DNA from: an uncultured Flavobacteriaceae bacterium
Lineage (GTDB): Bacteria > Bacteroidota > Bacteroidia > Flavobacteriales > Flavobacteriaceae
DNA length: 64,000 nucleotides
Reading direction: 5' to 3'
Assembly: GCA_947500385.1 (NCBI GenBank)
Contig: CANMSA010000014.1
Location: forward strand, 124,001 to 188,000
Shown here: piece by piece, positions 32,763-54,559 of the stretch
How positions within the stretch are numbered: position 1 is the first letter of the stretch
Layout of the letters: each line of letters starts with the position of its first letter
Program-made: the position numbers and the translations under genes
The notes under the pieces: generated by a model
Told to the model about the DNA's origin: nothing
The model's input: only the letters and a program-made list of their open reading frames with translations
Database searches by the model: none

Positions 32763-32772
32763 TTGGGTTTTT

Positions 32773-34053: not shown

Positions 34054-34069
34054 GGTATATCTATTCAAA

Positions 34070-36169: not shown

Positions 36170-36339
36170 AGGGTTTTTGGTCTTTATGCTGTTCTACAGA
36201 CGAAAGTAGGTGAAGAATTAAGTTTGGGCATCCTGTACTATACTGTTAGGTCAAGATAACCAAAAAGTACCAATATGTTTTTAATTTGATAATTTTGAAT
36301 CATCTATCGAGAACTAGCGCATTTATACTCACCTAAGCT
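36170..36339. promoter_or_regulatory. divergent promoter region of the rhamnose locus
   Basis: The 170 bases between the divergent rhamnose operon and the GntR-type regulator must hold both promoters and the operator. A TAnnTTTG -7 element of Bacteroidota type (TAATTTTG, 36290-36297) is oriented towards the regulator, though no matching TTTG -33 box is at the right distance. I cannot fix the operator by eye. Confidence 0.4.
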
Positions 36340-37392
36340 ATGGAGGCATCAAATATTCAATACATCCAGGTCGACGTTGATTCCAGAATGCCAAAATACA
36401 AGCAAATCGTCGACGCTATTGTGGAAGCTATCGGCCGTGGAAATATGCAGATGGGCGATAAAATTCCCTCGATCAACGAGGTGAGTGAAACCTGTCTTTT
36501 GTCGCGCGATACAGTGGAAAAAGCATATAGTCTCCTCAAGGCCCGGAATATCATAGAGTCCGTAAAGGGCAAAGGGTACTATGTGACCCGTTGCGACCTA
36601 TCTTCCAAGATACGTGTGCTGTTCCTGATCAACAAGCTAAGCGCATACAAGATGCGCATCTTCAATTCGTTCGTAGGAGTCCTTGGAACCAAAGGGACCG
36701 TGGATCTGGATATCTATCATTGTGAGCCCTCTGTATTTATCAATATTCTAGCACAAAAACTACAGCAGTATGATCAGTTTGTGATTATGCCCCATTTTAA
36801 AAATGAAAAGATGCAGCACATGGGATGCACGGAAGACATTCTTGAAGTAATAAAGCAAATTCCCGAGGAAAAGCTTATTATCATGGACCGAAACCTTTTG
36901 AGCCTTTCCATGAAAGTTGGGCGCATTTATCAAGATTTTAATGACGATATATTCAATGCGCTTTCCGCGGGGGTAGAAAAGGTTAAAAACTACCGGAAAA
37001 TTATTTTGGTCTATCCTAGTAAAGCGGTCTACCCTTACCCTAAAGGTATCATTACCGGGTTCAAAAAATTTTGCATCAAACACGAATTTGACTTTGAGAT
37101 TTTAGATGAGATCTATGACGGTATGGAACTACAAATGAAGGATTTGTTCATAACCATCGAAGAAACCGACCTGGTGAATTTGGTCAAGCAGGTCCGCGAC
37201 AGTCATTATAAACTGGGAGAGGATATTGGAATTATTTCCTATAATGATACCCCTTTAAAAGAGCTTTTGGGAATTACGGTCATCAGCACCGATTTTAAAA
37301 AAATGGGAGCCGAAGCCGCCCGAATGATTTTGGAGGATAACCGCACTGCACAGAAAAACGACTTTAACTTCATCGACCGCCATTCCGTATAG
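36340..37392 (+). CDS. GntR-type regulator with LacI-like ligand domain, probable rhamnose regulator
   Basis: 350 residues. Residues 10-80 are a GntR winged helix (YKQIVDAIVEAIGRGNMQMGDKIPSINEVSETCLLSRDTVEKAYSLLK). The rest is a periplasmic-binding-protein fold as in LacI-type regulators (IRVLFLINKLSAYKMRIFNSF, EEKLIIMDRNL, DIGIISYNDTPLKELLGITVISTD). This domain combination is known for sugar regulators in Bacteroidota. It is divergent from the rhamnose operon and just upstream of the PUL, so rhamnose or rhamnulose is the likely effector; that is inference from position. Confidence 0.85.
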   Translation: MEASNIQYIQVDVDSRMPKYKQIVDAIVEAIGRGNMQMGDKIPSINEVSETCLLSRDTVEKAYSLLKARNIIESVKGKGYYVTRCDLSSKIRVLFLINKLSAYKMRIFNSFVGVLGTKGTVDLDIYHCEPSVFINILAQKLQQYDQFVIMPHFKNEKMQHMGCTEDILEVIKQIPEEKLIIMDRNLLSLSMKVGRIYQDFNDDIFNALSAGVEKVKNYRKIILVYPSKAVYPYPKGIITGFKKFCIKHEFDFEILDEIYDGMELQMKDLFITIEETDLVNLVKQVRDSHYKLGEDIGIISYNDTPLKELLGITVISTDFKKMGAEAARMILEDNRTAQKNDFNFIDRHSV

Positions 37393-37616
37393 CTTAAGCA
37401 CGTTATAGTTTATTCGGATATATAAAATCGAAGTCTCGTTTTATAATTCAGCAGACCCATACCGCACAGTACAGTACAGGATGGATGCTATAATTCTACA
37501 GCATATTATTGTTCGAAGTTTGGAGATGCTTTCACCAATGGAATCATAGAAATCGGTAAGGGTACTCCAAATGTCTGACTAGACGACAGAAGATATCAAG
37601 AACAAAAAATTGGAAA

Positions 37617-40600: not shown

Positions 40601-40799
40601 CAACGGAGCCGATATTGGAAATGTCTTCAAAAATGCAAGGATATACACCAGCATTCAAAATCCTTTTTTGTTCACTGAATACGAGAATGGTAATCCTGAA
40701 ATCAACCGTTCCGGTGATACGGCCTTGGTCAGAAATGTGAACTATGGGGCCTATCCGATTTCGAGAGTTTATACCCTGGGCGTAAATGTTACTTTTTAA
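37617..40799 (+). CDS. SusC/RagA-type TonB-dependent outer-membrane transporter
   Basis: 1060 residues: signal peptide to about 32 (FSIQAQ), a carboxypeptidase-D regulatory-like domain (GTVSSENGAPLPGVNVIAKGT, residues 40-105), then a plug domain (VIGYGTRDREDLIGAVSAI ... GVQLRQNGAPGGGPELLVRGVAS) and a 22-stranded barrel ending RVYTLGVNVTF. Such proteins form the outer-membrane channel of glycan uptake, with a SusD lid and energy from TonB. No separate N-terminal STN domain, so it is not linked to an anti-sigma factor. It is followed by SusD after ten bases. Confidence 0.95.
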   Translation: MKKRGHVQASFGGFCFALIFLGLLLSGFSIQAQGKIISGTVSSENGAPLPGVNVIAKGTTIGVSADFDGIYTIDVPEGVTTLVFSYIGFSPQEITIGDQTTINVELQESAVALDETVVIGYGTRDREDLIGAVSAIQAKGIAEQPITTFEQALSGQVSGVQLRQNGAPGGGPELLVRGVASTGSNNAPLYVVDGIPLGNVNSQRDNFILSAIDPNSIESISVLKDASAKAIYGSRASNGVVVITTKRGKLGKPTITFGTSAGFQTIPEFEQPNVMDAEELRRFRIEYFQDRRVALGALGQGEIAELDRLINLGDLGEGTNWFDEITRSAPIFEYNVGINGGTEKVRYNVSTNYTNQDGTLIGTKFKRYSIRANLDVDITDNMRFGINLAPTQTIANGGRTDAGSNNFNIFSAVPLSRWTDPSAPVFDENGELTNVGLGSLIPFYNVNPVYLLKGRESNRRTNQLLAGSFLEVDILKGLTARTFGSIQYIDRRNSSFEPSDFPGDGALTPNVLGTRQARAGISEQTNFNWIWENTLNYSTTIADAHRIDVLAGFTMENRRFDNTIINAVNIIDESIVIPNSNNTDPENINNFTGRGEAGENSLISLIARLDYAYKNRYYVTGTIRRDGSSRFGANTRYGNFPSVAGAWRISNEPFWENIKNTVSEFKLEGGYGISGSNANIGNFQAQGTITGGPDYVFGGSLAPGSAVSGLPNSLLTWEEAKELNLGVDLGLFNNKVFLGVDYYDIETEGFLSGLPLPTTSGFSSILTNLGSIENKGFEVELQLNNVFNGKDFQWDANFNFTRNRSKVLDLAAESGFIRRGAIARQFTETAVGEEVGLYRGFNVTGLFTQAEIDDPNVPKYPGAVEGSLKYEDGNGDGVLGDEEDFVIIGNPNADFTYGMVHNLRYKNLDLSVIFTGAVGQQIFNGTNQYNGNQDGVFNLDRRQLERWRPGDDPTNRTIPGTGSDLSRQRFRLPNSLSVDDASYLWVRNITLGYNINGADIGNVFKNARIYTSIQNPFLFTEYENGNPEINRSGDTALVRNVNYGAYPISRVYTLGVNVTF

Positions 40800-40809
40800 A
40801 ATTTGTGTG

Positions 40810-42273
40810 ATGAAGAACAACAAGATATTTTCAATTCTAATATGTACCGCCGTGCTTGTCCTTGTGGGCTGTGATAGTTTTCTTGATGAGGCTCCTGAAA
40901 CCTTTCGAACCCCTCAGAACTTTTTTGAAACCGAAGATCAAATCAATGAGGCAATAGCGGGAATTTATAATACCAACCGAGGGTTAATGAACGGTGCCCA
41001 TTGGCGTTTTGGTGAAAACCGTTCGGATAACACCAGTTTTCAATTCAATCCTGCCGATAGAGGTGGGATTAACAATGAAGAAGTGGATCTTTTTTTGATG
41101 TTATCGGCCAATCCCAACCTACGCGACTACTGGAATGCCAGTTACTCGGGCATCTCTAGGTCCAATTTCGCATTGGAGAACATTGCTAATGTGACCTTCA
41201 ACGATAACGCTGTAAAACAAGCGAGAAGGGGTGAGATATTGTTTTTGCGCAGCTGGTTCTACTTCAATCTTGTACAACTTTTTGGCGATGTCCCCTATGT
41301 GACCTCGGCTGGAGACACGCCAGATGAAATCTTATCCGATGAGTTTCTGGCAAGGATTCCCGTAGGCCAAGTCTATGCGAATATCATGGCAGATCTCCAA
41401 GAAGCCATTGGTTCTTTGCCCACCCTTGGGAATACAGAAAGTGGAAGGGCCACACAAGGCGCTGCGCTCATGCTAAAGGCGAAAATGCACATGGCCTTGC
41501 AAGAGTTTCAAGCTGCGGAGGCATTGTTGCAACAATTGCAGGGTCAGGGCTACGCATTGCAGGCCGACTACGCAAGTATTTTCGCTCCCGATAACAAAAA
41601 CAACAACGAAATGGTGTTTGAAATACAATATTCATTCGCATTGGGGCAGGCCTCCAATTTCGTTTCGAGATTTGTGCCCTTTAATAGTGGTGTAGACATT
41701 CTTGGGGATAGCGGTCCCGCAGGATCACGGGCCGGACAAAACCAACCGACCCAAAACCTTATCGATCTTTATGATGCGGACGACGCCCGCTTTTCGCACA
41801 ATATCTCTTTTTATGACAATGGTACGACCATAGAACCATGGATGAGCAAATTCAATTATGGATTTGAGGATCAGGGATTACAGGACGTTAATTTTCCAAT
41901 GTTCCGCTACGCGGATGCACTGTTGATGTTGGCCGAGTGTTATAACGAAACGGGCGGCGGCGATCCACAACCCTTATTGTTGCAGGTACGGGGCCGATCC
42001 ATGCCAGATCCTAGTCTTAGTGCGGCGGAAACGTCCGATCTAGGCCAAACCATTGCCGATGAACGTCGCCGAGAACTTGCCTTTGAAAACCACCGCTGGT
42101 TCGATTTACTTCGTACGGGCAAGGCCGTTGAAGTAATGACCGCGCATGGGGCAGCTCAGAAAGCACAAAAACCTACGGTGCCCGCCGAGGCGTATACCAA
42201 CATAAGAACCATATTAGGTATTCCATTGGGGCAGGTTGAGGAATTTGATTTTACGCAAAACGAAGGCTGGTAG
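40810..42273 (+). CDS. SusD/RagB-type surface glycan-binding lipoprotein
   Basis: 487 residues from the ATG at 40810 (an upstream in-frame ATG lies inside the susC 3' end). The lipobox LVLVGC has C21. SusD features: FLDEAPETFRTPQNFFETEDQINEAIAGIYN near the start, TPR-like helices (RGEILFLRSWFYFNLVQLFGDVPYVT) and the C-terminal RRRELAFENHRWFDLLRTG. It forms the lid over the SusC channel on the outer surface and binds the polysaccharide. Length is shorter than many SusD proteins but complete. Confidence 0.95.
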   Translation: MKNNKIFSILICTAVLVLVGCDSFLDEAPETFRTPQNFFETEDQINEAIAGIYNTNRGLMNGAHWRFGENRSDNTSFQFNPADRGGINNEEVDLFLMLSANPNLRDYWNASYSGISRSNFALENIANVTFNDNAVKQARRGEILFLRSWFYFNLVQLFGDVPYVTSAGDTPDEILSDEFLARIPVGQVYANIMADLQEAIGSLPTLGNTESGRATQGAALMLKAKMHMALQEFQAAEALLQQLQGQGYALQADYASIFAPDNKNNNEMVFEIQYSFALGQASNFVSRFVPFNSGVDILGDSGPAGSRAGQNQPTQNLIDLYDADDARFSHNISFYDNGTTIEPWMSKFNYGFEDQGLQDVNFPMFRYADALLMLAECYNETGGGDPQPLLLQVRGRSMPDPSLSAAETSDLGQTIADERRRELAFENHRWFDLLRTGKAVEVMTAHGAAQKAQKPTVPAEAYTNIRTILGIPLGQVEEFDFTQNEGW

Positions 42274-42325
42274 TTACGATTGTTTACCGAACCATACTTA
42301 TTAATTAGATACAAAACAATGCGAT

Positions 42326-44116
42326 ATGAAGACTAGGTTTAATGCAGCACTAATGCTTCTTACGATACTATCCATGGTAATTTTGGGTGGATGTAAAGAA
42401 GATGACCCAACGATGGAGGGCCCATATGCGTTATTTACGTTTGAGATGGCCGACCTTACCGTTGCTTTTAGCAATGAATCAGTTGATAATCCCACGAGTT
42501 ACAACTGGGATTTTGGCGATGGGCAAACGTCCACCGAAGAAAGCCCGACGCACACCTATGCCGAAGGTGGTACCTACACGGTTATTTTAACCACCAGCAA
42601 TAGTTCAGGAGAAAGTAAATTTGAAAGGGTAGTTACCGTTACCGAACCCGAAGAACCGCTACCACCCGTAGTTTTTGAATCATTTGATAGTTATACCGCC
42701 GATGCTTCGGTAGAAGGACAGGGTACGGCAATGGACGGATGGGCAGGGGCATGGACGAAATTAGGCGGAGATGATGTAAATGTGGTGTCGGAGGGGATCA
42801 TAAATAACACTATTGCAGCAATAACATCGGGAAATTCGTTATTGCTGGATGCAAGTGGTACGAATACCCGTTACAAGCGCAATTTCTCAACGCCCTACTT
42901 GGATAATGGAAATACGTACTGGTTCGCTTTCCAAGCGGAGTTTGCCAACACCGACCTCGATGGTGGTGAAGTACAGGTAATGCTTGTTGACAACAATGGC
43001 GAGCTTTTTGGAGGAGGCGGAGGAGACGGCCAATTTTTGGGGTTTGGAAAAACGATTACTCCAGGAGCGTTGGGGATCATGACCTTTGGTCCTTTTAATA
43101 ATGTAGAGGCAACAACGGTCATGGCAGATGGTCCGCTGTGGCTCGTAGCCAAGATAGAAACAAATGGGACCGAGGATCCCGATATCGTTCGCTTGTTCGT
43201 TAACCCTACTCCAGGTGCTGAACCTGCCGAAGGTACTGAGACGGTAAGCTTTGCGGTCCCGGAACTGAATGGCGGTTGGCAGGGAGTCGGCTTTAAATAT
43301 GGTGGGGGAAATGCCTCCATGGTGAAAATTGATGACATCTACATAGGAAATACCTATGCGGATATCACACCTTCCAGTTATTTAGATCTTCCGCCAGCAG
43401 TCTTCGACAACTTTGATCCGTATACTGTTGATACTACCATAGAAGGCCAAGGGGATACTACCAATGGTTGGTCGAGCCCATGGACAAAACTATCTGGAGG
43501 TGATGTGAACGTCGTTGCTGGAGGAATCGAAAATAGCGAACTATCAATAACGACCACAGGAAATGCACTAATAATGGATGCAAGCGTGGGTTCTAGCCGC
43601 TATAAACGCAGCTTATCAGAAGCCTTTGTAGATGATGGCCGAACCTACTGGTTTGCCTTTCAAGCAGCATTTGAAGGTGCGACCGACGACACCGGTGAAT
43701 TGGTGGTGATGCTCGTTGACAACGATGCGGAATCCTTTGGCGGAGGTGGAGGAAATGGCCAATTCTTGGGTATTGGTAAAACCATTTCCGCAGGCGCTCC
43801 TCTTGGTATCATGACCTTTGGCCCATTCAATAACGTAGATGCAACAGATGTGTCAGTAGCAGATGGCCCGCTTTGGGTGGTCGCCAAGATCGAAACCAAT
43901 GGAACCGCCGAACCCGATTTGGTTCGGGTGTTCGTTAATCCTACCCCAGGTACCCAACCAATAAACGGAACAGAGGCCGTTTCATTTGCCGCCCCCGAAC
44001 TGAACGGTGGTTGGCAGGGCGTTGGTTTTAAATTTAGTGGAGGGAGTACTACGGCAAAAGTCGATGATATTTACTTAGGGTATCGCTATGATGATGTTAC
44101 CCCTGAAAACTATTAG
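42326..44116 (+). CDS. PKD-domain surface lipoprotein with two tandem repeat domains
   Basis: 596 residues with lipobox MVILGGC (C23). Residues 33-110 are a PKD domain (SYNWDFGDGQTSTEESPTHTYAEGGTYTVILTTSN). Two roughly 235-residue repeats follow (about 118-355 and 358-596), each beginning VFxxFDxYT and sharing AFQAxF, GQFLGxGKTI, LGIMTFGPFNNV, DGPLWxVAKIETNGT and ELNGGWQGVGFK; they look like jelly-roll carbohydrate-binding modules. Position after SusD marks it as the surface glycan-binding protein (SusE/F role). The duplicated domain could bind a repeating glycan at two points. Confidence 0.8.
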   Translation: MKTRFNAALMLLTILSMVILGGCKEDDPTMEGPYALFTFEMADLTVAFSNESVDNPTSYNWDFGDGQTSTEESPTHTYAEGGTYTVILTTSNSSGESKFERVVTVTEPEEPLPPVVFESFDSYTADASVEGQGTAMDGWAGAWTKLGGDDVNVVSEGIINNTIAAITSGNSLLLDASGTNTRYKRNFSTPYLDNGNTYWFAFQAEFANTDLDGGEVQVMLVDNNGELFGGGGGDGQFLGFGKTITPGALGIMTFGPFNNVEATTVMADGPLWLVAKIETNGTEDPDIVRLFVNPTPGAEPAEGTETVSFAVPELNGGWQGVGFKYGGGNASMVKIDDIYIGNTYADITPSSYLDLPPAVFDNFDPYTVDTTIEGQGDTTNGWSSPWTKLSGGDVNVVAGGIENSELSITTTGNALIMDASVGSSRYKRSLSEAFVDDGRTYWFAFQAAFEGATDDTGELVVMLVDNDAESFGGGGGNGQFLGIGKTISAGAPLGIMTFGPFNNVDATDVSVADGPLWVVAKIETNGTAEPDLVRVFVNPTPGTQPINGTEAVSFAAPELNGGWQGVGFKFSGGSTTAKVDDIYLGYRYDDVTPENY

Positions 44117-44470
44117 AATTTGTAAACGCTTAAGGAACCCCATATGCTGTATTGGGAATACCCTCGGGTCAGGTATCTTATGTAGTCAGGAACAGACACT
44201 AAGCCAAGAGCAACTTAGGGTCAATAATTTAACGCCTAATTGTAAAATTAGGTATTTGTGGGTCGTATCTATCGAGACGTTCTCAAAACAATTGAGTTAG
44301 TTTGATAAGTGCGGCCCACAATTTTGTATTTTACTCGATAATCGAAATCCAACCCTGTATTCCTATGGTGCATTTCGCCAAGGCTTGTCATAAAAATCTA
44401 TTCTTGTTCTATAACAGTCGTTTGAACAAACCGCCCGCTAGTTTGCCAGGAAGTTAAGTCGTACTATTCA
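44117..44470 (+). other. 354-base gap with a structured RNA-like hairpin
   Basis: Besides the hairpin at 44235, a second one pairs 44258-44273 with 44304-44319 (12 Watson-Crick pairs, three U-G pairs and one mismatch over 16 positions), with an internal CTCAA/TTGAG stem, followed by a T-rich stretch. It may be a second terminator or a structured leader of the rhamnosidase-sulfatase message. No gene is seen. Confidence 0.45.
44235..44252 (+). terminator. hairpin after the susCD operon
   Basis: CCTAATT (44235-44241) and AATTAGG (44246-44252) form a 7-bp perfect stem with a four-base loop, 120 bases past the stop of the surface glycan-binding protein. The tract after it is only moderately T-rich. 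Confidence 0.5.
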
Positions 44471-46804
44471 ATGATAAATCGGTCCGTATTCATTCGAGCT
44501 TTAATGATTTCCAGTGTACTGTGCACGCTGCTTTGCTGTGCGCAAAAACATGCGGTATCGCGTGAAAGTCCTGCAAAAATCCCTACTCGGCCGATTCCTT
44601 GGAAAGCAAAATGGATTGCGGCCTCAGAGATCCAAGACACCATAAATACCTGGACCGTTTTTAGAACAATACAGCGGCTTCAGAAAAAACCCGAGACGCC
44701 TGTTTGGGCCCGAATTGCGGTAGATTCTAAATACTGGCTTTGGATCAATGAACGCTTGGTGGTTTTTGAGGGCGGACTTAAAAGAGGACCCAACCCCGAT
44801 GACACCTACTATGATGAAGTAGATGTCTCCAAGTATTTGACCAAGGGAGAGAACACCCTCGCCGTATTGGTATGGTACTTTGGGAAAAATGGGTTTTCGC
44901 ACAATAGTAGTGGTCGGGCGGGATTGTTGTTTCAAGCCAAGGGAGGCGATCTGCAAATTTTTTCCGATGCAAGCTGGAAAGCTTGGCAACACCCGGCCTT
45001 TGAAGAAACGGGGCCGCCCCATCCCAATTTTCGCCTGCCCGAATCCAACATTGGGTTCAATGCACAAAAAGGAGACATGGCCTTTCTTGAAAAAGAATAT
45101 GACGATGCCGAACGCCCCGGTGCCACCGTCCTGGGACAAGCAGGTGCCCCCCCTTGGAACAAACTAGAAAAACGCCCGATACCCCAATGGAAAGATTATG
45201 GGTTAAAGCCCTATCTGGAGGCGCCTTCATTTCCGTTTGTGGCAACAGGCGACACCATAAAAGTACGATTGCCCTATAATGCCCAGATAACCCCTTTTTT
45301 CAAAATTAGGGCTACCGGGGGTCAAAAGCTGGATATTCGCACCGATCACTATTATGGCGGAGGCACGCCCAATGTACGGGCGGAATATACGAGTAGGAGT
45401 GGTGTTCAAACCTACGAAAGCCTTGGCTGGATGAATGGCCATGAGGTACACTACCATATTCCTGAAGGCATACAGGTATTGGATCTTGCGTATCGGGAAA
45501 CGGGATACGACACGGAGTTTACCGGTAGTTTTGAATGTGACGATGAATTTTACAATCGCCTTTGGCAAAAATCCCTGCGTACCCTGTATGTAACGATGCG
45601 GGACACCTATATGGACTGCCCCGACAGGGAACGTGCACAATGGTGGGGCGATGAGGTGTTGGAAAGCGGGGAGGCATTTTACGCTCTATCGCCCAGTAGC
45701 CATGCCCTGGTTCGCAAGGGAATGTTGGAGCTCATGAATTGGCAAAAGCAGGACAGCACTATTTTTTCACCTGTTCCCGCGGGCAATTGGGACAAGGAAC
45801 TGCCAACGCAAATGCTTAGCAGTATCGGCACTTATGGGTTTTGGAACTATTACTGGAATACCGGTGATAAAAAGACCATCGCTACTGTTTATAGTGCGGT
45901 GCGCGACTATCTCTCGGTTTGGAAGTTGAACGAAGAGGGACTTGTACAACTGCGTAAAGGTGGTTGGACCTGGGGGGACTGGGGCGAAAACAAGGACATG
46001 CCCTTACTTTTTCAGACCCAATATTATATGGCTTTGGACAGCTATCGCCGAATGTCCGAGTTATTGGGAGAAACTGAAGAGGTAGTGAGCATCAAAGCAA
46101 GGATGCGGCAGTTCAAAAGCGCGTTCAATCGTACTTTTTGGAATGGGAAGGCCTACCGCTCCAAGGATTATAAAGGTAAAACGGACGACCGGTCGCAGGG
46201 GTTGGCCGTAGTGGCCGGTCTTGCCGATCCAGAGAAGTTTCCGGCAATTTACGAGGTACTCAAAGTGGAACGGCATGCGAGTCCCTATATGGAAAAATAT
46301 ATACTGGAAGCGCTTTTTCAAATGGGGTATGCCGACTTTGCTCTTGAACGCATGCGCCTGCGTTTCCAAACCATGGTAGACCATCCTACCCTTACTACCC
46401 TGTGGGAAGGTTGGGGTATCGGTGCCGCAGGCTATGGAGGAGGCACCGTTAACCACGCTTGGAGCGGTGGGGGACTTACCCTGCTGTCTCAATACGTTGC
46501 GGGAGTAGCTCCTACTTCGGCAGGGTATGCGACCTTCGAAATACGGCCCCGACTAGGATTTTTAAAACGGGTGAAGGCTGAAGTGCCTTCCATAAAAGGA
46601 ATTATTAGGGTTGCCATTACGGTGGGGGAGTCCTATAAGGTAGCGTTGGAAGTGCCTCCCGACACCAGGGCTAAGGTAGTGGTACCCTCGCGCTATACCC
46701 AACTATTTCTGAACGGCAAAAAAATGGTATCGGAAGAAGGAAATACAAACCAGGAGATCATTGTTCCGCCAGGAACGCATCTGTTAATTGCCAATGAACC
46801 ATGA
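44471..46804 (+). CDS. GH78 alpha-L-rhamnosidase, lipoprotein
   Basis: 777 residues with a lipoprotein signal (LLCCAQ; C22 or C23). Residues 40-350 are beta-sandwich modules (ARIAVDSKYWLWINERLVVFEGG resembles the first). The catalytic (alpha/alpha)6 barrel follows, with TMRDTYMDCPDRERAQWWGDE at 376-395, matching the GH78 acid/base region, and LTTLWEGWGIGAAGYGGGTVNHAWSGG near the C terminus, containing the second catalytic carboxylate region. A C-terminal beta-sandwich completes the domain order of GH78. It releases terminal L-rhamnose from glycans. Its TGA overlaps the sulfatase ATG by four bases. Confidence 0.9.
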   Translation: MINRSVFIRALMISSVLCTLLCCAQKHAVSRESPAKIPTRPIPWKAKWIAASEIQDTINTWTVFRTIQRLQKKPETPVWARIAVDSKYWLWINERLVVFEGGLKRGPNPDDTYYDEVDVSKYLTKGENTLAVLVWYFGKNGFSHNSSGRAGLLFQAKGGDLQIFSDASWKAWQHPAFEETGPPHPNFRLPESNIGFNAQKGDMAFLEKEYDDAERPGATVLGQAGAPPWNKLEKRPIPQWKDYGLKPYLEAPSFPFVATGDTIKVRLPYNAQITPFFKIRATGGQKLDIRTDHYYGGGTPNVRAEYTSRSGVQTYESLGWMNGHEVHYHIPEGIQVLDLAYRETGYDTEFTGSFECDDEFYNRLWQKSLRTLYVTMRDTYMDCPDRERAQWWGDEVLESGEAFYALSPSSHALVRKGMLELMNWQKQDSTIFSPVPAGNWDKELPTQMLSSIGTYGFWNYYWNTGDKKTIATVYSAVRDYLSVWKLNEEGLVQLRKGGWTWGDWGENKDMPLLFQTQYYMALDSYRRMSELLGETEEVVSIKARMRQFKSAFNRTFWNGKAYRSKDYKGKTDDRSQGLAVVAGLADPEKFPAIYEVLKVERHASPYMEKYILEALFQMGYADFALERMRLRFQTMVDHPTLTTLWEGWGIGAAGYGGGTVNHAWSGGGLTLLSQYVAGVAPTSAGYATFEIRPRLGFLKRVKAEVPSIKGIIRVAITVGESYKVALEVPPDTRAKVVVPSRYTQLFLNGKKMVSEEGNTNQEIIVPPGTHLLIANEP

Positions 46805-48240
46805 ATATGTTTTTTAAGTCTTGTTTGGTCATGCTGCCGGTTTTCGCTATTGGATGTAAAGAAAATGCCAAAGCGGTTGCGACCGAGGTGCTTGAAAATG
46901 CACCCCCCAATATTGTGCTGATCGTGGCAGATGATATGGGCTACAACGACCTAGGCTGCTATGGGAACGACTTTATAGAAACCCCACATTTGGATAGGCT
47001 TGCAAAAGAGGGCATCCGATTCACCGATGGGTATGCCGCGGCACCGCTATGCAGCCCGTCGCGCGCTAGTTTGCTTACCGGTTTACATCCCATACAGGTG
47101 AATATCACAGAACATATTCATGGGAATCCCCCGGCCGGTCCGCACCAACGCCTAAAGACTCCACCGGTAAGCCAACAGTTAGACCTCGAATTTCAAACCA
47201 CCGCGGAGCTCCTTAAAGCGCAAGGGTACCGTACCGCTCATATCGGAAAGTGGCATTTGGGCGGCGGGGACTTCCTTCCGGAAAAGCAAGGGTTCGATGT
47301 AAACATTGCGGGGGCCTGGAACGGCCTGCCGAAAAGTTTTTTCTACCCGTTTTTTCCTAAAGGCGAAAAGCCGGAAATCCAAGATAGTTCCGAAGAAGGG
47401 GATTACTTGACGGATGTGCTTACCGATAAGGCGGCCGATTTTATAACCGCTCAAAAGGATAGTGTTTTTTTTCTAAGCCTTAATTATTATTCGCCCCATG
47501 TACCTATTGAGGGCAAGGAAGACTTGGTAGAAAAGTATCGTAAAAAAAGGGGGGTTACCAAAGATACGGTCCTTCCCAATATTCATTATGCGGCCATGAT
47601 CGAAAGCATTGATCAAAATGTGGGGAGACTACTGGAACTGATCCAGCAGTTGGGCCTGGAAAAGAATACCCTGGTTATTTTTACCTCCGATAACGGCGGA
47701 CTATCCGTGGAGGAAGTACCCTTTTTTGCTAAGCATACCCCCCCGACCGACAATGGGCCGCTTCGCGATGGCAAGGGATATGTGTACGAAGGCGGTATCC
47801 GAGAGCCGTTTTTGGTGAAGTGGCCCTTGACCATTGCCCCCGGTACCAGCAGTTCACCTGTAATTGCCCAAGACCTGTTCAATACGTTTGCCGAGGTGAG
47901 CAATTCCGATACCAGGGTAGCGGGGAGCGTTAGCCTACTGCCCATTTTAAAGGGGGAAACGCCCCCGGAACGAGGCTTGTTATGGCATTTACCGCATTAC
48001 AGCCCACAACACGGGAAACCGGCGTCGGCCTATCGAGAGGGCGATTGGAAAATAATTCACCATTACGAAGATGACCGCTACGAACTGTTTAATTTACAAG
48101 AAGACCTTGGCGAAACAAGGGATTTGGCAATTTCCAATATAGAGAAATTGGAAGAAATGAAACAAAAGCTACACGCTGAACTAAAGCGATTAAAAGCTAA
48201 GATGCCAGTGCCAAACCCCAATTTTGTGGGGACTGATTAG
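46801..48240 (+). CDS. S1 family arylsulfatase lipoprotein
   Basis: 479 residues with lipobox FAIGC (C19). Formylglycine-dependent sulfatase: the maturation motif CSPSR is at residues 84-88 (Cys84 becomes formylglycine), metal ligands D44 and D45 in VADDMGYND, HIGKWHLGG carries the lysine/histidine pair, and TSDNGG the last Asp/Asn. The substrate is unknown, but coupling to a rhamnosidase gene (ATGA overlap) suggests removal of sulfate from a rhamnose-containing algal glycan such as ulvan. It needs a formylglycine-generating enzyme encoded elsewhere. Confidence 0.93.
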   Translation: MNMFFKSCLVMLPVFAIGCKENAKAVATEVLENAPPNIVLIVADDMGYNDLGCYGNDFIETPHLDRLAKEGIRFTDGYAAAPLCSPSRASLLTGLHPIQVNITEHIHGNPPAGPHQRLKTPPVSQQLDLEFQTTAELLKAQGYRTAHIGKWHLGGGDFLPEKQGFDVNIAGAWNGLPKSFFYPFFPKGEKPEIQDSSEEGDYLTDVLTDKAADFITAQKDSVFFLSLNYYSPHVPIEGKEDLVEKYRKKRGVTKDTVLPNIHYAAMIESIDQNVGRLLELIQQLGLEKNTLVIFTSDNGGLSVEEVPFFAKHTPPTDNGPLRDGKGYVYEGGIREPFLVKWPLTIAPGTSSSPVIAQDLFNTFAEVSNSDTRVAGSVSLLPILKGETPPERGLLWHLPHYSPQHGKPASAYREGDWKIIHHYEDDRYELFNLQEDLGETRDLAISNIEKLEEMKQKLHAELKRLKAKMPVPNPNFVGTD

Positions 48241-48309: not shown

Positions 48310-48525
48310 TCATTCCTTTCGGTTATGTCGAAAAGGAACTACCGATATAAGAAAGCCCCCGACAAACGAAATCAATACACACAGATACAGCAGCGGATGG
48401 TTAAAATAATCGGTAATCGATGTCATTTTCAGTGGTTTGACCGAAAACCAGAACGACCAAAACAAGAACAAAGAAGTCACAATTATCCCTATGAGGGCTG
48501 TTATTTGGAATTTGGTTTTGGCCAT
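48310..48525 (-). CDS. 71-residue two-helix membrane protein (paralogue of 48844-49059)
   Basis: 71 residues with two hydrophobic helices (about 9-28, ALIGIIVTSLFLFWSFWF; about 45-63, LYLCVLISFVGGFLISVV) joined by a short loop, KPLKMTSITDYFNHP, and a basic tail (PFRHNRKE). It aligns without gaps to the 71-residue protein at 48844-49059, with 42 identical positions by eye. Both lie downstream of the LanC gene on the same strand. Unknown family; candidates for producer immunity or for a membrane accessory of the lanthipeptide cluster. Confidence 0.65.
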   Translation of the reverse strand: MAKTKFQITALIGIIVTSLFLFWSFWFSVKPLKMTSITDYFNHPLLYLCVLISFVGGFLISVVPFRHNRKE

Positions 48526-48843
48526 AAATATTTATTTTGGTGCTTATATTGTTGAAGGCTTCCCTGTTTTGGGACAGGAGATAATATGATCGAACAAACA
48601 TGCTGGCAACCTATGGATTAACGGCCATCTTGTTTGCCATAATGGTATGAAAATGGTACAATCAAGTGGATGATTGCTACACTTACTATACTACTTATGA
48701 TACGCCATAAGCCAAGTGTAATGCCAAAATCCATAATTCTAATTATATAGGAGTTTCCTTCAATGCTGGTTCAACAGGGTTTAATGGACTGGGATAGCGG
48801 GCAAATTAACACCCATTGCATATTGATATGCAACCCTTAAGGA
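48526..48843. other. 318-base AT-rich gap
   Basis: It separates the two paralogous small membrane genes. Short frames only, no hairpin with a convincing T run, nothing I would annotate. The DNA on either side shows that the two small genes arose by duplication rather than by sharing a promoter here. Confidence 0.4.
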
Positions 48844-49059
48844 TTAGTTTTTCCAATTCTTTCGATAGGGCACTACGTTGGCAAGATACCCCCCTAGAAT
48901 CGAAATCAACATACAGAGATATAACATCGGATCGTTCAAATGTTCCGTGATGGATGTTATTTTCAGTGGCTTATCCAAGAACCAGAAAGAACAAAAAAAC
49001 AACAAAGAAGTCAAGATTGCTCCGCGGAGGGCTATTTTTTTAAATTTGGCTTTGGTCAT
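48844..49059 (-). CDS. 71-residue two-helix membrane protein (paralogue of 48310-48525)
   Basis: Same size and layout as its partner: helices at about 9-28 (IALRGAILTSLLFFCSFWFL) and 45-63 (MLYLCMLISILGGYLANVV), with the loop KPLKITSITEHLNDP and basic end PYRKNWKN. It starts 61 bases after the LanC stop, so may be the last member of the same message. Shared invariant blocks are SFWF, KPLK, TSIT and the VVP near the end. Function unknown. Confidence 0.65.
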   Translation of the reverse strand: MTKAKFKKIALRGAILTSLLFFCSFWFLDKPLKITSITEHLNDPMLYLCMLISILGGYLANVVPYRKNWKN

Positions 49060-49120
49060 AGTTAAAAATACGAATTACGGTTGAAATAAGTAGGTGGACT
49101 CTTGTTCCTTTCACAAGAAA

Positions 49121-50338
49121 TCAACTAATCATCAAACATTGGCTCCATTTTAAGGGAGTTGGAGATAAATAGGATAAAATTGCTAAACCAATCCCGGCAA
49201 CCCCATCTAGTAGACAATCTTCTTTTTGCCAAGAACCTATTTCTTTTGGTTGCCATTTCATGTACCCCGCATAGCCATTTTCATGATTTGCCATTTTTAG
49301 TCCTTCAAGAAGCCAATAGTCCGCAGTATTTTTGAAATCAATGACTGCAGTGCTTTTATACAAATAATCAAAAATTAGCATTATACCAAATGCACCGTGA
49401 CATAGCCCTGCGTCTTTTACCATAGTTGTTTCCAAACTTTTTCTGAGTGCTGAATGTTTAAGTATTGCCATCGCTTCTTTATAAAGTATTTTATCGTTAA
49501 GCACTTCGGCAGCATGCCAAAGGGAAAGGCCAATTCCTAAATCTCCGTAACACCAGGCCAACCTAGAATATTCGACTGTTTTCTGTTTTTGATTTATCCA
49601 ACTGGGAAACAAGGACTTACTGGAGGGGGCGTCACTTTTTACACTAAGAATAAAACGAGTCGCTTTTATTAGTAAAGGACTTACCAAGGGTTCGAAATCT
49701 TGATAAATTACTAACCGGGCTAAAAAATTTATTATACTAGACATACCATGGGCCAGCCCCAAATTGATAACCTTAATTTCGTTTTTAGCTTGTACATAAG
49801 ATTCCCAATAGACTAACTCTTTATTTTCAAGGGCAGTTTTTTGCAACACTGAAATTACTTTAATCAGTATTACTTTGTACTTGTTTCTATTTTTTATAGA
49901 GTTAGCATTTTGATAACGTTTTAAGAAATACATAGCTTCACCAAGATACCCATGCAAAAAATCATAGTTATCTTGTTCAAAATTGGAAGCCATGATTTTG
50001 TCCAGAAAAATATCAATCTCCGAAAATATTTCTTTAGAATTAATCTCGAGAAAACCCTCTTCACAAATCATTTCTAAGACCCATCCTATGCCTGCAATAC
50101 CAGAGCAAAACGTTGGAAAGTTAAAGCCTTGATTGATTTCCTCAATTGTTTCCGCAAGTATTTTATGTCCCCTTTCTGAAATGGAATCGTCGTTTAAGAA
50201 TTCGCCATAGAGGATAAAAAAATAAGCTACACCCGTTTTACCGGATAAAAGACCTAGCTTCTTTTCTTTATCATAATGCTGCTGAAGGATGGTGCTTATA
50301 TCAAATAGCTTTTTCTCTAAGCCGGTTTTAACCATCAT
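49121..50338 (-). CDS. LanC-type lanthionine cyclase
   Basis: 405 residues of the LanC/LanCL family, an alpha/alpha toroid that adds cysteine thiols to dehydrated Ser/Thr in class I lanthipeptides. All zinc and catalytic residues can be seen: NYDFLHG with D126 (D141 in NisC), GLAHGMSS with H197, AWCYGDLGIG with C263, and GLCHGAFG with C313 and H314. The fold-repeat glycines are in place (SGKTGVAYF, CSGIAGIGW, LLDGVAGIGLAIL). It begins 34 bases after the S9 peptidase gene. No LanB is next to it, so dehydration must come from elsewhere. Confidence 0.9.
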   Translation of the reverse strand: MMVKTGLEKKLFDISTILQQHYDKEKKLGLLSGKTGVAYFFILYGEFLNDDSISERGHKILAETIEEINQGFNFPTFCSGIAGIGWVLEMICEEGFLEINSKEIFSEIDIFLDKIMASNFEQDNYDFLHGYLGEAMYFLKRYQNANSIKNRNKYKVILIKVISVLQKTALENKELVYWESYVQAKNEIKVINLGLAHGMSSIINFLARLVIYQDFEPLVSPLLIKATRFILSVKSDAPSSKSLFPSWINQKQKTVEYSRLAWCYGDLGIGLSLWHAAEVLNDKILYKEAMAILKHSALRKSLETTMVKDAGLCHGAFGIMLIFDYLYKSTAVIDFKNTADYWLLEGLKMANHENGYAGYMKWQPKEIGSWQKEDCLLDGVAGIGLAILSYLSPTPLKWSQCLMIS

Positions 50339-50372
50339 TTATATCGGTCTTTGAAGCATACGGATAGTGTGA

Positions 50373-52532
50373 TTATTGTGGCTGAAATTCTGGATGTCCC
50401 GTTTGCCAAAGGGCGAAAGCGAAAAAGTCCGACATATTTCTGTATAGCCCTTCGTAAGTTCCATCTCCACCATGTCCACCATCAAAATCTACAGAAAGTA
50501 AAAGTGGGTTAACACTTTTTGTCATGTTCTGAGCACGTGCAATGAATTTGGCAGGGTCCCAAGGAGTTACACTACCATCATTCATTCCCACCTTAATCAT
50601 AATTGCAGGATATTCTTTCTCAACTTTAAGACTATGATAGGAGTCCATTTCTTTCAATGCTTGAAATTCAATGGAATCATTAACAGTCCCGAACTCAGGC
50701 ATGTTGTTTTTACCATTAGGCTGAAATTCATACCGTAACATATTCAAAGCTGGCGAATCCATAATGCCGACCTTGAATAGGTCTGGTCTTTCAGTCAATG
50801 ATTTGCCCACGGCTATGCCTCCTGCGCTTAGACCATAGTTAACTAAATATTGCTGGGAAGTGTATTTTTTTTTAATTAGATATTCAGCACAGGCTATCAA
50901 ATCTTTCCAAGTATTCGCTTTTTTAGTTTTCTTTCCGTCTTCGTACCAATGATTCCCTTTCTCTCCCCCTCCTCTAACGTGAGGAAATACAACAATACCT
51001 CCCTCGTTGACCCAACTTAGAAAAGGAATGAAAAATCTCGGTGAAAAGGAAACTCCATAAGCCCCATAAGTATAAATCAAGGTTCTATTCATTCCATTCT
51101 TTTTCAAATTCTCACCAAATAATATAGAAACTGGCACCTTAGTTCCGTCCCAAGATTCAATTTCTATCTCCTCAATTTTGATTTTTTCAAAATCTTTATG
51201 ATTAGTATTACTTAGACCAACGTTTTCAAATAGTTCAGACTCTAAATCGTATTTGAAATAGGAGATGGGAGCCGTCCAACCGCTGATTGTAACAAACAAT
51301 TTTTCTCCCCTTGAAAACAAACTTGAGGAACCCGCTTTAAACGGTAATTCTAACTCTTTAGTGTGGTTTTTGGAAAGAACAAACATTTTAGCCTCAACTC
51401 CATTTTTTTTTGTGGTATAATAAACATTTTCATTTAAGTATTCAAAATCAGATATTACCTCATCTTTATATTCTGGCACTAAAACTTCCGGATTGTTAAA
51501 GTTTGGAGATTTCAAAGGAGTCCTGCAGATTTTAAAGTTAGGGGAGTTTTTAGCAGTTCGATATATCAAGTAATCATTTACAATATAGTACTGAGAAATT
51601 TTTTCTTTTTTAGAAAAAAGTAGTTGCCAATTTATCTTTTGGACATTAAATTCTTGAAAAATTGAACTGTAGTAAGTATCGCTATAGTTATCGGTATTAA
51701 CTAGTGCCCCCGTAATATAAGATGACTTACAATCAGCAATTGAAATTATTGGAACATCTCCTGTCTGAAAGGGAATATGTTTATTGTGCGCCTTTGAGAA
51801 AAGTGGAAAATTTGACTGGCCTTTACTGCCAATTTTGTAAAAGGTACCTACCGTGTTTAACAGATAAGTTGGATCCTCATACCTAAAATGTGGAATATGA
51901 GTATAAAAGAAACCTGAATTGTCCCGCAGCCATGAAACATTTCCCACAAAACCAGGACTTAACCCTGAAATATCACAAGCCTCTACATTTTTAGTTTTCA
52001 TATCGTAAAGGTACAACTGACCATTTTTTTCTCCTTTTTTTACAAGGTTTATGGCAATTTTTTGATTATCCCAGCTTACCTTAAAATAGCTTATTATATG
52101 TTCTTTATTATAAGAATTTGGGTCGAAAAGCAAAGTTTCATTTGAATCAAGATGTTTTTTGTAGTAGAGTTTTTGAACCCCATCCTCTTTGTCCTTAGAG
52201 AGGTAGAAATAGCTTCCATTTTCTTTAAACCTCAACTTGCGAACAACCTTATCTTGAACGTTTTCATATTTTAGAAACTTGTTGAGGAACCTAGTTCTTG
52301 GTAGTTTGTCTAACCATGATTCAGCTAAAATGTTTTGTTCATTAAACCAATCCAGGACTTTAGAGTCTGCTAAATCCTCCAGGTTTTTATAAGGGTCTAG
52401 AATTTGTTGTCCATGGATTGTTTCACTGAAGTCACCATTTTCGATGGAAGGATAATTAATTTCTGGTTTTAATTGTTGACCGTTGCATGACACAATCACA
52501 AATAAAACTAACAATCTTTTTAACATAGTCAC
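50373..52532 (-). CDS. S9A prolyl oligopeptidase lipoprotein in the lanthipeptide cluster
   Basis: 719 residues with a lipoprotein signal (FVIVSC, C16). The N-terminal part (about 20-430) is a seven-bladed propeller plus linkers, the C-terminal part an alpha/beta hydrolase: YGAYGVSFSP, then nucleophile S569 in GLSAGG, D652 in GMNDGS and H687 in DGGHGGDG. It cleaves short peptides after proline in the periplasm or outside. POP enzymes (FlaP) are known leader proteases of class III lanthipeptides, and the precursor here has a proline next to its leader end. Attachment by lipid implies action after export. Confidence 0.92.
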   Translation of the reverse strand: MTMLKRLLVLFVIVSCNGQQLKPEINYPSIENGDFSETIHGQQILDPYKNLEDLADSKVLDWFNEQNILAESWLDKLPRTRFLNKFLKYENVQDKVVRKLRFKENGSYFYLSKDKEDGVQKLYYKKHLDSNETLLFDPNSYNKEHIISYFKVSWDNQKIAINLVKKGEKNGQLYLYDMKTKNVEACDISGLSPGFVGNVSWLRDNSGFFYTHIPHFRYEDPTYLLNTVGTFYKIGSKGQSNFPLFSKAHNKHIPFQTGDVPIISIADCKSSYITGALVNTDNYSDTYYSSIFQEFNVQKINWQLLFSKKEKISQYYIVNDYLIYRTAKNSPNFKICRTPLKSPNFNNPEVLVPEYKDEVISDFEYLNENVYYTTKKNGVEAKMFVLSKNHTKELELPFKAGSSSLFSRGEKLFVTISGWTAPISYFKYDLESELFENVGLSNTNHKDFEKIKIEEIEIESWDGTKVPVSILFGENLKKNGMNRTLIYTYGAYGVSFSPRFFIPFLSWVNEGGIVVFPHVRGGGEKGNHWYEDGKKTKKANTWKDLIACAEYLIKKKYTSQQYLVNYGLSAGGIAVGKSLTERPDLFKVGIMDSPALNMLRYEFQPNGKNNMPEFGTVNDSIEFQALKEMDSYHSLKVEKEYPAIMIKVGMNDGSVTPWDPAKFIARAQNMTKSVNPLLLSVDFDGGHGGDGTYEGLYRNMSDFFAFALWQTGHPEFQPQ

Positions 52533-52577
52533 AATTTCTTATTAACAGTCTTAATAATACCATTGGGATAAATTAAA

Positions 52578-52610
52578 CCATCGACTTCTAGCCTTTTCAA
52601 AAGTCGATGG
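52578..52610 (-). promoter_or_regulatory. hairpin between precursor and peptidase genes
   Basis: CCATCGACTT (52578-52587) pairs perfectly with AAGTCGATGG (52601-52610) around a 13-base loop. On the transcript it comes after the precursor stop and is followed by TTTAATTTAT, so it could be a partial terminator giving more precursor message than enzyme message, as in many bacteriocin operons. Confidence 0.6.
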
Positions 52611-52633
52611 CCTATATTCATTCCTAATTAATA

Positions 52634-52792
52634 TTAGCCATTCCCATTGGTATCATCATTACACAGAGCGGCAGGCTCTGATTTAGTACCCCCTCCACAG
52701 TCTTGAACGGTTTCTCCACCAAATATATTTTGGGGGTTATTCAATTTGGCAATCTTAAATTTTTTTAAAGATAACTTTTTCTTGACTTTCAT
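52634..52792 (-). CDS. class I lanthipeptide precursor (LanA)
   Basis: A 52-codon frame (ATG at 52792, TAA at 52634-52636). The leader begins MKVKKKLSLKKFKIAKLNN, the Bacteroidota class I lanthipeptide leader (basic, LxLKKFKIAKLNN), continues PQNIFGG, with a Gly-Gly at 25-26, and the core of 26 residues reads ETVQDCGGGTKSEPAALC, then NDDTNGNG. Two cysteines (C32, C44) with Thr/Ser before each (T28; T36, S38) allow two thioether rings. It lies 101 bases before the peptidase gene and 78 after the regulator. No second precursor copy is seen. Confidence 0.88.
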   Translation of the reverse strand: MKVKKKLSLKKFKIAKLNNPQNIFGGETVQDCGGGTKSEPAALCNDDTNGNG

Positions 52793-52870
52793 ATTTAAAT
52801 ATTTTTGTTTGCAAGAAATTTAGTAAAATGAATGATTGAGAAAAAGAAATTCGACTCCAGTTTCATGAAT

Positions 52871-54559
52871 TTAGACTTGTTTTTGATTTAGCTTTTTGAT
52901 AAAATAGGATGGGTTTAGGCCAGTTTTCTTTTTAAAAGCCAGCGAAAAGGATTCGGCATTATTAAATCCTACTTCTTTAGATATTGCATCTATGGTATAT
53001 TTATTTCGTAAACTCAAATTTGTTTGTAACTCCTTAATAGCATAATCTATTCTTAAATCTTTAATGTAGTTTGAATAGGAGGTTTTTTTGTAACGGTTCA
53101 AAACAACCGAAAGATATTTTGAATTTGTTTTTAAAGATTTTGCCAACTTATCAGATTTTAAATCATTGTTTAGAAACTCTAATTCTTTCTCAAATTTTTC
53201 TAATCCAACCAAAATGTTTTGAATTACGTTTTCAGAGATTTTTTTGTCCTCTTCCGGAGTCACCTTAAAGATTTTTTTTGTGTTCTCAGAACTTGATGAT
53301 AAAAGAATCTGAAACCTACTTTCTAAGATATTTTTTCTTCTTATCATCAACATAAGCACTCCAATTAGAACCAGCGCCAAAACAAAAAATGATATTGAAA
53401 GAAAACTTGCCTTTTCTTTATCTTTTTCAAGCCTGTATATAATGTTATCCCTTTGTTCCAGTAAGATAGGGGTATCAAATCCTTCTTTTAGTGTTTTGGA
53501 CAAACTAATTCCATTTGAATTATTTATGCTATCAAACTCAAGTAGCCTATTTGTGAATAGTAGCTGATTTTTTAGGTCATTTGCTTCTTGGTAATGGGAG
53601 ATTAATGTGTAATAAGCAGCCCTAGTTTCAATCGCCCTAATAGCCTGTAATTTGCTGACAGAATCCATTTTTTTGAAATAGTACAAGGCATCGGTGAGAT
53701 TGCCGGTGTTTTCTTTAATTTTACCTAAATAAAATAAGTAGAGTATATGTGTTTTTATTAAATCTGGATGACTTTTATTCAGTTTTGAAAGACCAGAATT
53801 CAAAATGTCCTCAGCTAGTATTAATTTTCCTCTCTTTAATTCGTAGATACCCAGTTGTAACCTGGTTTGAGAGTTCAGTATTGGGTATTTAGAGTTTGAT
53901 TTTAGCAGACCTTCGTCAAGTAAGGGTTTTGCTGAATTTGGTTGATTGGTTTTTAGGAAATATTCCCCAGTTTTCAGTAAAGATTCAACATACTCGATAC
54001 TGTTTTTTTCTTTGCTGACTATACGTTCATATGCTAAACATTCTTCAAATATTTCAAGGGCCTCTTCATTTCTCCCGATTTCCCCCTTTATAATAGCAAT
54101 ATTATGTTTTATAGCATACTCGTAGTATGTATTTCCCTTATCTTTTGCCAACTCTAAGGTTTTCAAATAGGTCTTCAGAGCTTTGTCATATTGACCAGTA
54201 ATGAGGAAATGCCCACCTTTGGAGGTATAGGATAAGATAGGATAGTTCTTTGAATTTAGTCCTTTGGTTAGATTAATAGCACTATCAAGTAATTTTATTT
54301 TTTTGATTTCATCAGGCTCATAGTAAGATTGCCAAGTAAGGGCTTTTCCAAGTTGAAGCGCATTTTTTTCTTTAAGTGCTTTCTTCTTATACGCCTCAAT
54401 ATAGCGAAGAGAAAGTAGGGTGTCTAGATAAACGGGTTTGATTAAATCATGAATTTCTCTAAAGGAGGCGCTTTTTGGGATGGTGATGTCTTGACCTCTA
54501 CTTTCTATAAAATGGAGTAGTTCTAATAAGGTAAAAATAACCAGTATTACTTTTTTCAT
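52871..54559 (-). CDS. membrane-anchored TPR/AraC-type regulator
   Basis: 562 residues from the ATG at 54559 (MKKVILVIFTLLELL); a longer frame exists but the extra residues are not a signal. A signal-like N-terminal helix, a periplasmic TPR region (about 60-360, GQYDKALKTYLKTLELAKDKG, GRNEEALEIFEECLAYE, GNLTDALYYFKKM), a transmembrane helix at 386-407 and a C-terminal AraC-type HTH (462-557, AISKEVGFNNAESFSLAFKKKTGLNPSYFIKK). It could sense an extracytoplasmic peptide or stress and control the lanthipeptide genes directly. Such regulators often sit beside Bacteroidota lanthipeptide genes. AT-rich like the cluster. Confidence 0.85.
   Translation of the reverse strand: MKKVILVIFTLLELLHFIESRGQDITIPKSASFREIHDLIKPVYLDTLLSLRYIEAYKKKALKEKNALQLGKALTWQSYYEPDEIKKIKLLDSAINLTKGLNSKNYPILSYTSKGGHFLITGQYDKALKTYLKTLELAKDKGNTYYEYAIKHNIAIIKGEIGRNEEALEIFEECLAYERIVSKEKNSIEYVESLLKTGEYFLKTNQPNSAKPLLDEGLLKSNSKYPILNSQTRLQLGIYELKRGKLILAEDILNSGLSKLNKSHPDLIKTHILYLFYLGKIKENTGNLTDALYYFKKMDSVSKLQAIRAIETRAAYYTLISHYQEANDLKNQLLFTNRLLEFDSINNSNGISLSKTLKEGFDTPILLEQRDNIIYRLEKDKEKASFLSISFFVLALVLIGVLMLMIRRKNILESRFQILLSSSSENTKKIFKVTPEEDKKISENVIQNILVGLEKFEKELEFLNNDLKSDKLAKSLKTNSKYLSVVLNRYKKTSYSNYIKDLRIDYAIKELQTNLSLRNKYTIDAISKEVGFNNAESFSLAFKKKTGLNPSYFIKKLNQKQV

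Follow-up and report, generated by a model that had tools for sequence, protein, structure and literature searches.

Passages of the survey PMC7268733 describe class I lanthipeptides of Bacteroidota with LxLxKx5L leaders ending in a double glycine (GG), split LanB dehydratases and C39 exporters, and the survey, by its own account, restricted the distance between a LanC-domain protein and its precursor to seven genes. Here we analyse a locus (48310-54559) in a 64,000-nucleotide stretch of DNA from an uncultured marine Flavobacteriaceae bacterium (the window), in which a putative class I precursor lies with a LanC cyclase, an S9A prolyl oligopeptidase (POP) and a regulator with tetratricopeptide repeats (TPR) and an AraC-type helix-turn-helix (HTH). 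As in the Bacteroidota systems of those passages (PMC7268733), the leader has the LxLxKx5L motif and a GG site, and a split LanB, a LanC and a C39 exporter are found in the genome; unlike in them, LanB and the exporter lie outside the cluster, and the locus has a POP of its own with an export signal, together with the TPR/AraC regulator. We propose that the locus is probably a satellite, still intact, within a class I lanthipeptide system of the hub-and-satellite type, with LanB and LanT supplied in trans. This reading builds on observations made from sequence, namely the gene content, the intact active sites, the inventory of LanB, LanT and LanC, the conservation of the locus and the recurrence of its architecture.

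Separation of precursors from their modifying enzymes is known from prochlorosin-type systems, where the passages of the survey place many precursors far from their LanM (PMC7268733) and PMC10783134 refers to one promiscuous ProcM-group enzyme. The window system is similar in that precursors lie far from the dehydratase presumed to modify them, but LanM carries out both steps, whereas here sharing would be confined to LanB, a separate cyclase being encoded in each LanC-bearing satellite. POP-type LanPB proteases occur in class III lanthipeptide clusters, again according to passages of the survey (PMC7268733), and the text of PMC8960859 includes unclustered proteases. The window S9A does not belong to a class III cluster, the three LanC-domain frames of its genome (405-432 aa) being too short for a kinase-type synthetase. 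FlaP is grouped with LanPB among the prolyl oligopeptidases of class III lanthipeptides. Like LanPB and FlaP, the window S9A is a POP-family protease with a Ser-Asp-His triad encoded beside a lanthipeptide precursor; unlike them, it has an export signal, its precursor is of class I type with a C39-type GG site, and it is also found alongside peptides that appear unmodified. Stand-alone LanC genes of Bacteroidales are a further comparison: in the part of PMC10352776 that treats them, those examined lack zinc and catalytic residues and the screened genomes lack LanB. The window LanC resembles these in having no neighbouring LanB and differs in that active-site residues and a genomic LanB are present. 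The RRNPP regulators of Gram-positive bacteria are cytoplasmic, carry an N-terminal HTH followed by TPR, and sense peptides. Like these, the window regulator combines TPR and HTH and adjoins a small, presumably exported peptide, but its domain order is reversed, its HTH is of the AraC type and, judged by eye, it spans the membrane. We found no description of a Flavobacteriaceae LanB/LanT hub with LanC satellites, nor of a cassette of regulator, GG peptide and S9A; since subscription literature lay mostly outside this search, this is weak evidence of absence.

Inventory of LanB and LanT in the genome

The genome from which the window derives (G000; 6.03 Mb, 123 contigs, 99.86% complete) carries it on contig C14. 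The original prediction reported neither LanB nor transporter, which holds for the window, where genome-wide profile searches placed no LanB and no C39 peptide exporter, but not for the genome. One Lant_dehydr_N match (480.6 bits) and one Lant_dehydr_C match lie adjacent on C8, forming a single split LanB; three LanCs lie on C8, C10 and C14, and two C39 exporters on C8 and C41. The C8 genes make up a complete class I cluster of LanT, HlyD, two precursors, the split LanB and LanC, and C10 holds a second satellite with a regulator, two precursors and LanC. The leader model has matches on C8, C10 (two), C14 and C20, which exceed the cut-off in two cases, and two weaker ones on C7 and C15. The C20 precursor is accompanied by an apparent kinase and response regulator (by eye), without a LanC.

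The exporter on C41 (L020:642-6390) is found with HlyD beside a grasp-with-spasm pair, the SPASM maturase scoring above the cut-off and the ATP-grasp maturase just below it. It is 64-72% identical to the exporters of the LanB-free cassettes described below and 57% identical to the C8 LanT. Because the C41 exporter stands with the grasp-with-spasm pair, the window peptide is more likely to be exported by the C8 LanT.

Other explanations for the missing genes were rejected. A LanB hidden in the window is contradicted by the sole genome matches being on C8, and an ABC-ATPase-like open reading frame (ORF) at 6331-7308 lies 41 kb from the locus and is no C39 exporter. Nor did the assembly split true neighbours: ~9.6 kb of C14 lie beyond the locus on one side, at least 113 kb flank the C8 hub on both sides of its contig, and the two are therefore at least ~120 kb apart.

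The locus and its enzymes

The genes named in the original prediction were all found as open, co-oriented frames, transcribed in the order regulator, precursor, S9A, LanC and two small proteins, with gaps of 78, 101, 34, 61 and 318 bases. The features are as follows.

52871..54559, minus strand: TPR/AraC regulator (ATG at 54559; the ORF runs on to a TTG at 54613)
52634..52792, minus strand: precursor peptide, 52 aa
52578..52610, minus strand: hairpin and T-rich stretch between the precursor and S9A genes
50373..52532, minus strand: S9A prolyl oligopeptidase, 719 aa
49121..50338, minus strand: LanC lanthionine cyclase, 405 aa
48844..49059, minus strand: small protein, 71 aa, membrane-like by sequence
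48310..48525, minus strand: second tandem copy of the small protein, 71 aa, membrane-like

The LanC domain is recognized by profile search (LANC_like, 5.5e-44), and NisC is among the solved relatives retrieved by sequence search. The claim that LanC keeps its zinc and catalytic residues was borne out: D126, H197, R259, W262, C263, Y264, C313 and H314 are all present and invariant in 94 of 94 aligned LanCs, orphans included. Their zinc and catalytic roles are presumed to be those of the NisC residues.

The S9A protein matches Peptidase_S9 (4.9e-42) and the N-terminal propeller (4e-34) and has the catalytic triad S569/D652/H687. Across 41 aligned S9As the serine is present in all 41 and the aspartate and histidine in 40, the exception being a shorter protein that is gapped there. 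Its closest solved structure is the prolyl endopeptidase 2bkl (9.9e-73), and peptide cyclase 1 and OphP are also among its solved relatives. Its N-terminus is a hydrophobic segment closing in a lipobox-like IVSC (read by eye; a strict script rule missed it), and the protein is thus probably an exported lipoprotein facing outward from the inner membrane. A protease exported in this way would be expected to act on the core after its export, not on the leader; its role may be to mature or clear the core, or to limit the lifetime of a signal.

The precursor leader ends in LSLKKFKIAKLNNPQNIFGG, which holds both the LxLxKx5L motif (LSLKKFKIAKL, an exact fit) and the GG site, and is followed by the core ETVQDCGGGTKSEPAALCNDDTNGNG with two cysteines and four Ser/Thr residues. 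Conservation of the precursor in relatives, the lack of which would have counted against the original prediction, was found in a congener: over the 18 leader codons compared with the orthologue at locus L037, 15 residues are kept, and eight silent changes stand against three replacing ones, which points to purifying selection on the leader. The two cores share K-(S/T)-E-x-x-x-L-C, and a ring between the Ser/Thr and the Cys of this stretch appears likeliest.

The regulator has TPR matches at residues ~131-315 (TPR_12, 1.3e-11) and HTH_18 at residues 490-573 (3.9e-12) in the profile search. An N-terminal signal-like segment and one transmembrane segment between TPR and HTH_18 were read by eye from the translation, and the protein is probably a membrane-spanning transcriptional regulator with a C-terminal AraC-type HTH_18 domain. 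The hairpin behind the precursor gene has a 10-bp stem (CCATCGACTT/AAGTCGATGG) followed by the T-rich stretch; its minimum free energy is -30.4 kcal/mol over 96 nt (z -5.8), and none of 200 shuffles was equally stable. It is likely a partial terminator or processing site that would yield precursor mRNA in excess over the enzyme message. The two 71-aa proteins are tandem paralogues (42 of 71 residues identical) with a possible role in self-protection, and the one at 48844..49059 had no tblastn match at E 1e-4 in loci L021-L123. The G+C content of the locus is 34.5% compared with 43.3% for the 64-kb window, which suggests acquisition, perhaps a recent one, and hints at a foreign or mobile past. 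To its left, positions 31374-48240 form an apparent rhamnose polysaccharide utilisation region, with what we take from the translations to be a sugar kinase, an isomerase, SusC/SusD-like proteins, a rhamnosidase-like protein and a sulfatase.

An orthologous locus and a hub in a congener

Within the genus, an S9A orthologue is found in two of ten genomes, the source genome included, only that of G425 being close (57% identity) and other matches reaching at most 37%. At locus L037 of G425, regulator, precursor, S9A and LanC follow in the same order as in the window, the regulator being 52%, the S9A 57% and the LanC 48% identical. As the gene order recurs in the congener and the leader is conserved, the window gene set is more than a chance association.

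The hub of G425 (L193) consists of LanT, HlyD and a split LanB and precedes a ribosomal-protein operon. Neither a LanC nor a precursor lies in the 20 kb read there, and a relaxed ORF filter, used because the first leader pattern had missed the known precursor of G425, found only two ribosomal-protein-like ORFs; the same filter recovers nine of nine known precursors in seven other loci. The three LanCs of G425 are on C2, C31 and C40, away from the hub contig, each beside a GG-leader precursor. With no precursor of its own, this hub, if active, would have to serve other loci. On C2 (L191), the orthologous cassette is adjoined by a row of subtilase-like exported proteins (by eye) and two more S9As. 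A further satellite type, seen in G425, G217 and G373 (L199, L132 and L201), comprises LanC, a precursor with a Cys/Gly-rich core, a DUF6734 protein (assigned by domain search for L199 and alike by eye in L132 and L201) and an uncharacterized protein of ~230 aa.

LanC and LanB across Flavobacteriaceae

LanB hub and LanC-precursor satellites thus occupy separate loci in both G000 and G425. More widely, 29 of 79 named LanC loci have no LanB in the stretch seen, some of these being cut by contig ends. Twenty-six of the orphans could be placed in 23 genomes of which the completeness is not given, and each of the 23 carries LanB at another place, represented in G313 by two fragments at contig ends; the other three belong to genomes outside the set. 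G303 and G138 look like one genome, G299 equals G425, and the 23 genomes overlap partly with the family and genus samples. Of 299 genomes sampled from the family, 15 have LanC, 25 have LanB and 13 have both, compared with ~1.3 expected to have both if the two were independent. The genomes with LanC only are G079 (81% complete) and G122 (99% complete, 120 contigs). No LanC match was found in 12 of the 25 LanB genomes of this sample, one of which has only a 48-aa LanB fragment.

In G102, LanC and LanB lie 285 kb apart on one contig. Over a tree of 94 LanCs (97 collected, three identical ones merged, seven near contig ends left unlabelled), the paired or orphan state changes 14 times, and 8 to 10 of these changes are forced by well-supported branches. 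In Aquimarina (L071), precursors of the type found on C10 adjoin LanB and a pair of LanCs, one of them short, whereas in G000 and G138 such precursors lie apart from LanB; this module occurs both in cis and in trans to LanB.

A wider cassette of regulator, GG peptide and S9A

When the window S9A was used as query against 397 family genomes, 42 of them had matches at E <= 1e-80. From these and further loci, 41 S9A proteins were assembled, with duplicate loci counted once; they do not form a random sample. A window-like regulator lies upstream on the same strand in 20 of them and in 19 there is none in the stretch seen (~1.4-1.5 kb upstream for most); the remaining two, with less than 600 bases upstream, were left unjudged. 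Between regulator and S9A, 18 of the 20 have a GG peptide (16 distinct peptides), and this combination recurs in many Flavobacteriaceae genera. The regulator-linked S9As are clustered without forming one clade (nine changes against a shuffled mean of 14, a value as low being reached in 4 of 500 shuffles). Twelve regulator-free S9As constitute one fully supported clade of probably housekeeping function. A strict lipobox rule, which misses obvious cases such as the window S9A, finds the cysteine in 13 of 20 regulator-linked S9As, 7 of 21 others and none of the 12 in the separate regulator-free clade; by eye, it is present in ~18 of the 20.

The S9As of the window, L037 and L165 form a clade (100 support). 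At L165, a split LanB lies upstream in cis; the 20 kb read there contain no LanC, though two LanCs are encoded elsewhere in its genome, and a Peptidase_S8 protein lies between the peptide and S9A of this locus. A split LanB in cis with no LanC beside it also occurs at L166 and L170, where the cores are Cys-free and Asp-rich, which suggests dehydration-only products. In four genera (G110, G344, G345 and G144), genes for a C39 exporter and HlyD adjoin the cassette; the peptide cores lack Cys and resemble one another, being of the GPIDRDKI(R/K).P.RR type, and no LanB match was found in these genomes. The source genome itself has a second cassette on C33 (L204:1-3764), with a Cys-free peptide whose leader ends in NPNYILGG and a regulator cut by the contig start.

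Fifteen of the 16 distinct cassette peptides were compared with 153 leader-like ORFs of LanC loci, L060 being excluded for the erythromycin-esterase-like gene between its peptide and S9A; the ratios are indicative, as these controls were picked by a motif not required of the cassette peptides. Cysteine is present in the core of 6 of 15 cassette peptides and 151 of 153 controls, and proline at position -7 from the GG cut in 8 of 15 and 5 of 153, respectively.

Discussion

Our results suggest how the window locus could function within a class I system. The TPR/AraC regulator would control the locus in response to a presumed input, and the precursor would be dehydrated in trans by the single split LanB of C8. 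The local LanC would then close a ring, most likely in the K-(S/T)-E-x-x-x-L-C stretch, and a C39 exporter encoded elsewhere, most likely the C8 LanT and possibly the one on C41, would carry the peptide out and cleave it behind the GG site. Outside the inner membrane, the local prolyl oligopeptidase may trim, mature or clear the exported peptide. Service of the locus by a distant LanB, one of the explanations put forward in the original prediction, is thus supported, short of proof, by the single split LanB on C8 and by a congener hub without LanC or precursor. As a description, 'reduced class I locus' is incomplete: regulator, peptide and S9A belong to the wider cassette, which can do without lanthipeptide enzymes.

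Several observations weigh against the satellite reading. The precursor scores 17.9 bits (17 in the genome scan) with the class I leader model NF038153, under its cut-off of 22, and the congener leader lacks the first Leu of LxLxKx5L and has no NCBIfam match. In the LanC tree, the window and L037 proteins form a long, isolated pair. Nine of the 15 cassette peptides are Cys-free, so that the S9A itself is no evidence for lanthionine. The window core has a single proline, which falls within the candidate ring, an awkward place for trimming, and core proline as a mark of S9A substrates had to be rejected, with 13 of 15 cassette peptides and 145 of 153 controls containing it. In addition, G122 has an orphan LanC, with no LanB match found in that genome even in a repeat search, so that a LanB in trans cannot always be assumed from an orphan LanC.

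Alternatively, the locus may be a secreted-peptide signalling cassette, in which the outer TPRs of the regulator sense the exported peptide or an S9A product, with lanthionine rings as an optional extra in this lineage. We regard this as possible rather than probable. It is favoured by the recurrence of regulator, GG peptide and S9A in many genera, by the exporter-linked cassettes of G110, G344, G345 and G144 with their alike Cys-free cores in genomes without a LanB match, by the second, Cys-free cassette on C33 and by the pairing of TPR with HTH_18 in the regulator. However, TPR/AraC regulators also adjoin ordinary lanthipeptide clusters, L172 and L158 have regulator and S9A without a GG peptide, and the regulator-linked S9As are clustered yet not one clade; the outside position of the TPRs is predicted from sequence alone, and the G110 regulator gave no TPR match above threshold. 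A broader form of this idea, which we advance tentatively, is that the TPR-transmembrane-AraC regulator, exported GG peptide and outward S9A make up a Flavobacteriaceae secreted-peptide system not described before, which could plausibly be a peptide-pheromone circuit in Gram-negative bacteria. Its modification module would be swappable, the states being none (GPIDRDKI-type peptides with a C39 exporter of their own, in the genomes lacking LanB), dehydration only (split LanB in cis, Cys-free and Asp-rich cores), or lanthionine rings as in the window with LanB in trans. The S9A might also be a leader protease or macrocyclase, like LanPB/FlaP or the POP-type cyclases of plants and fungi, since it is a POP relative with a full triad, counts peptide cyclase 1 and OphP among its solved relatives and belongs to cassettes whose leaders more often have Pro at -7. 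This is rather doubtful, as the S9A has an export signal, often lipoprotein-like, and the leader would be removed inside by the C39 protease; moreover, its closest match is the prolyl endopeptidase 2bkl and not a cyclase, and the motif-chosen controls temper the -7 comparison.

The two other explanations in the original prediction fare worse. A LanC that works without any LanB, on residues activated another way or in another role, would fit the absence of LanB from the window as well as G122, where LanC (L128, C24) adjoins C39 exporter-like, HlyD-like and tryptophan-halogenase-like proteins; it is very unlikely, because a full LanB is present in the source genome and the congener, a LanB was found in 23 of 23 orphan-LanC genomes searched, and modification by another route is not needed. 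Decay of a once complete cluster is hinted at by the low G+C content and by the accessory distribution of the locus in the genus, but is contradicted by frames that are all open, by intact LanC and S9A active sites and by a conserved orthologous locus at 48-57% identity whose leader codons show the excess of silent changes, which makes a remnant the most improbable reading of all.

If the satellite reading is correct, cluster-based genome mining, which takes the LanB and LanC neighbourhood as its unit, would miss such satellites or score them as broken, and the hub-and-satellite view may help to pair orphan LanC or LanB genes with their partners. One LanB/LanT hub apparently serving several LanC satellites in this genus makes the sharing of enzymes for ribosomally synthesized and post-translationally modified peptides directly testable. 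The wider cassette provides testable candidates for secreted peptides, and perhaps for peptide signalling, in Bacteroidota.

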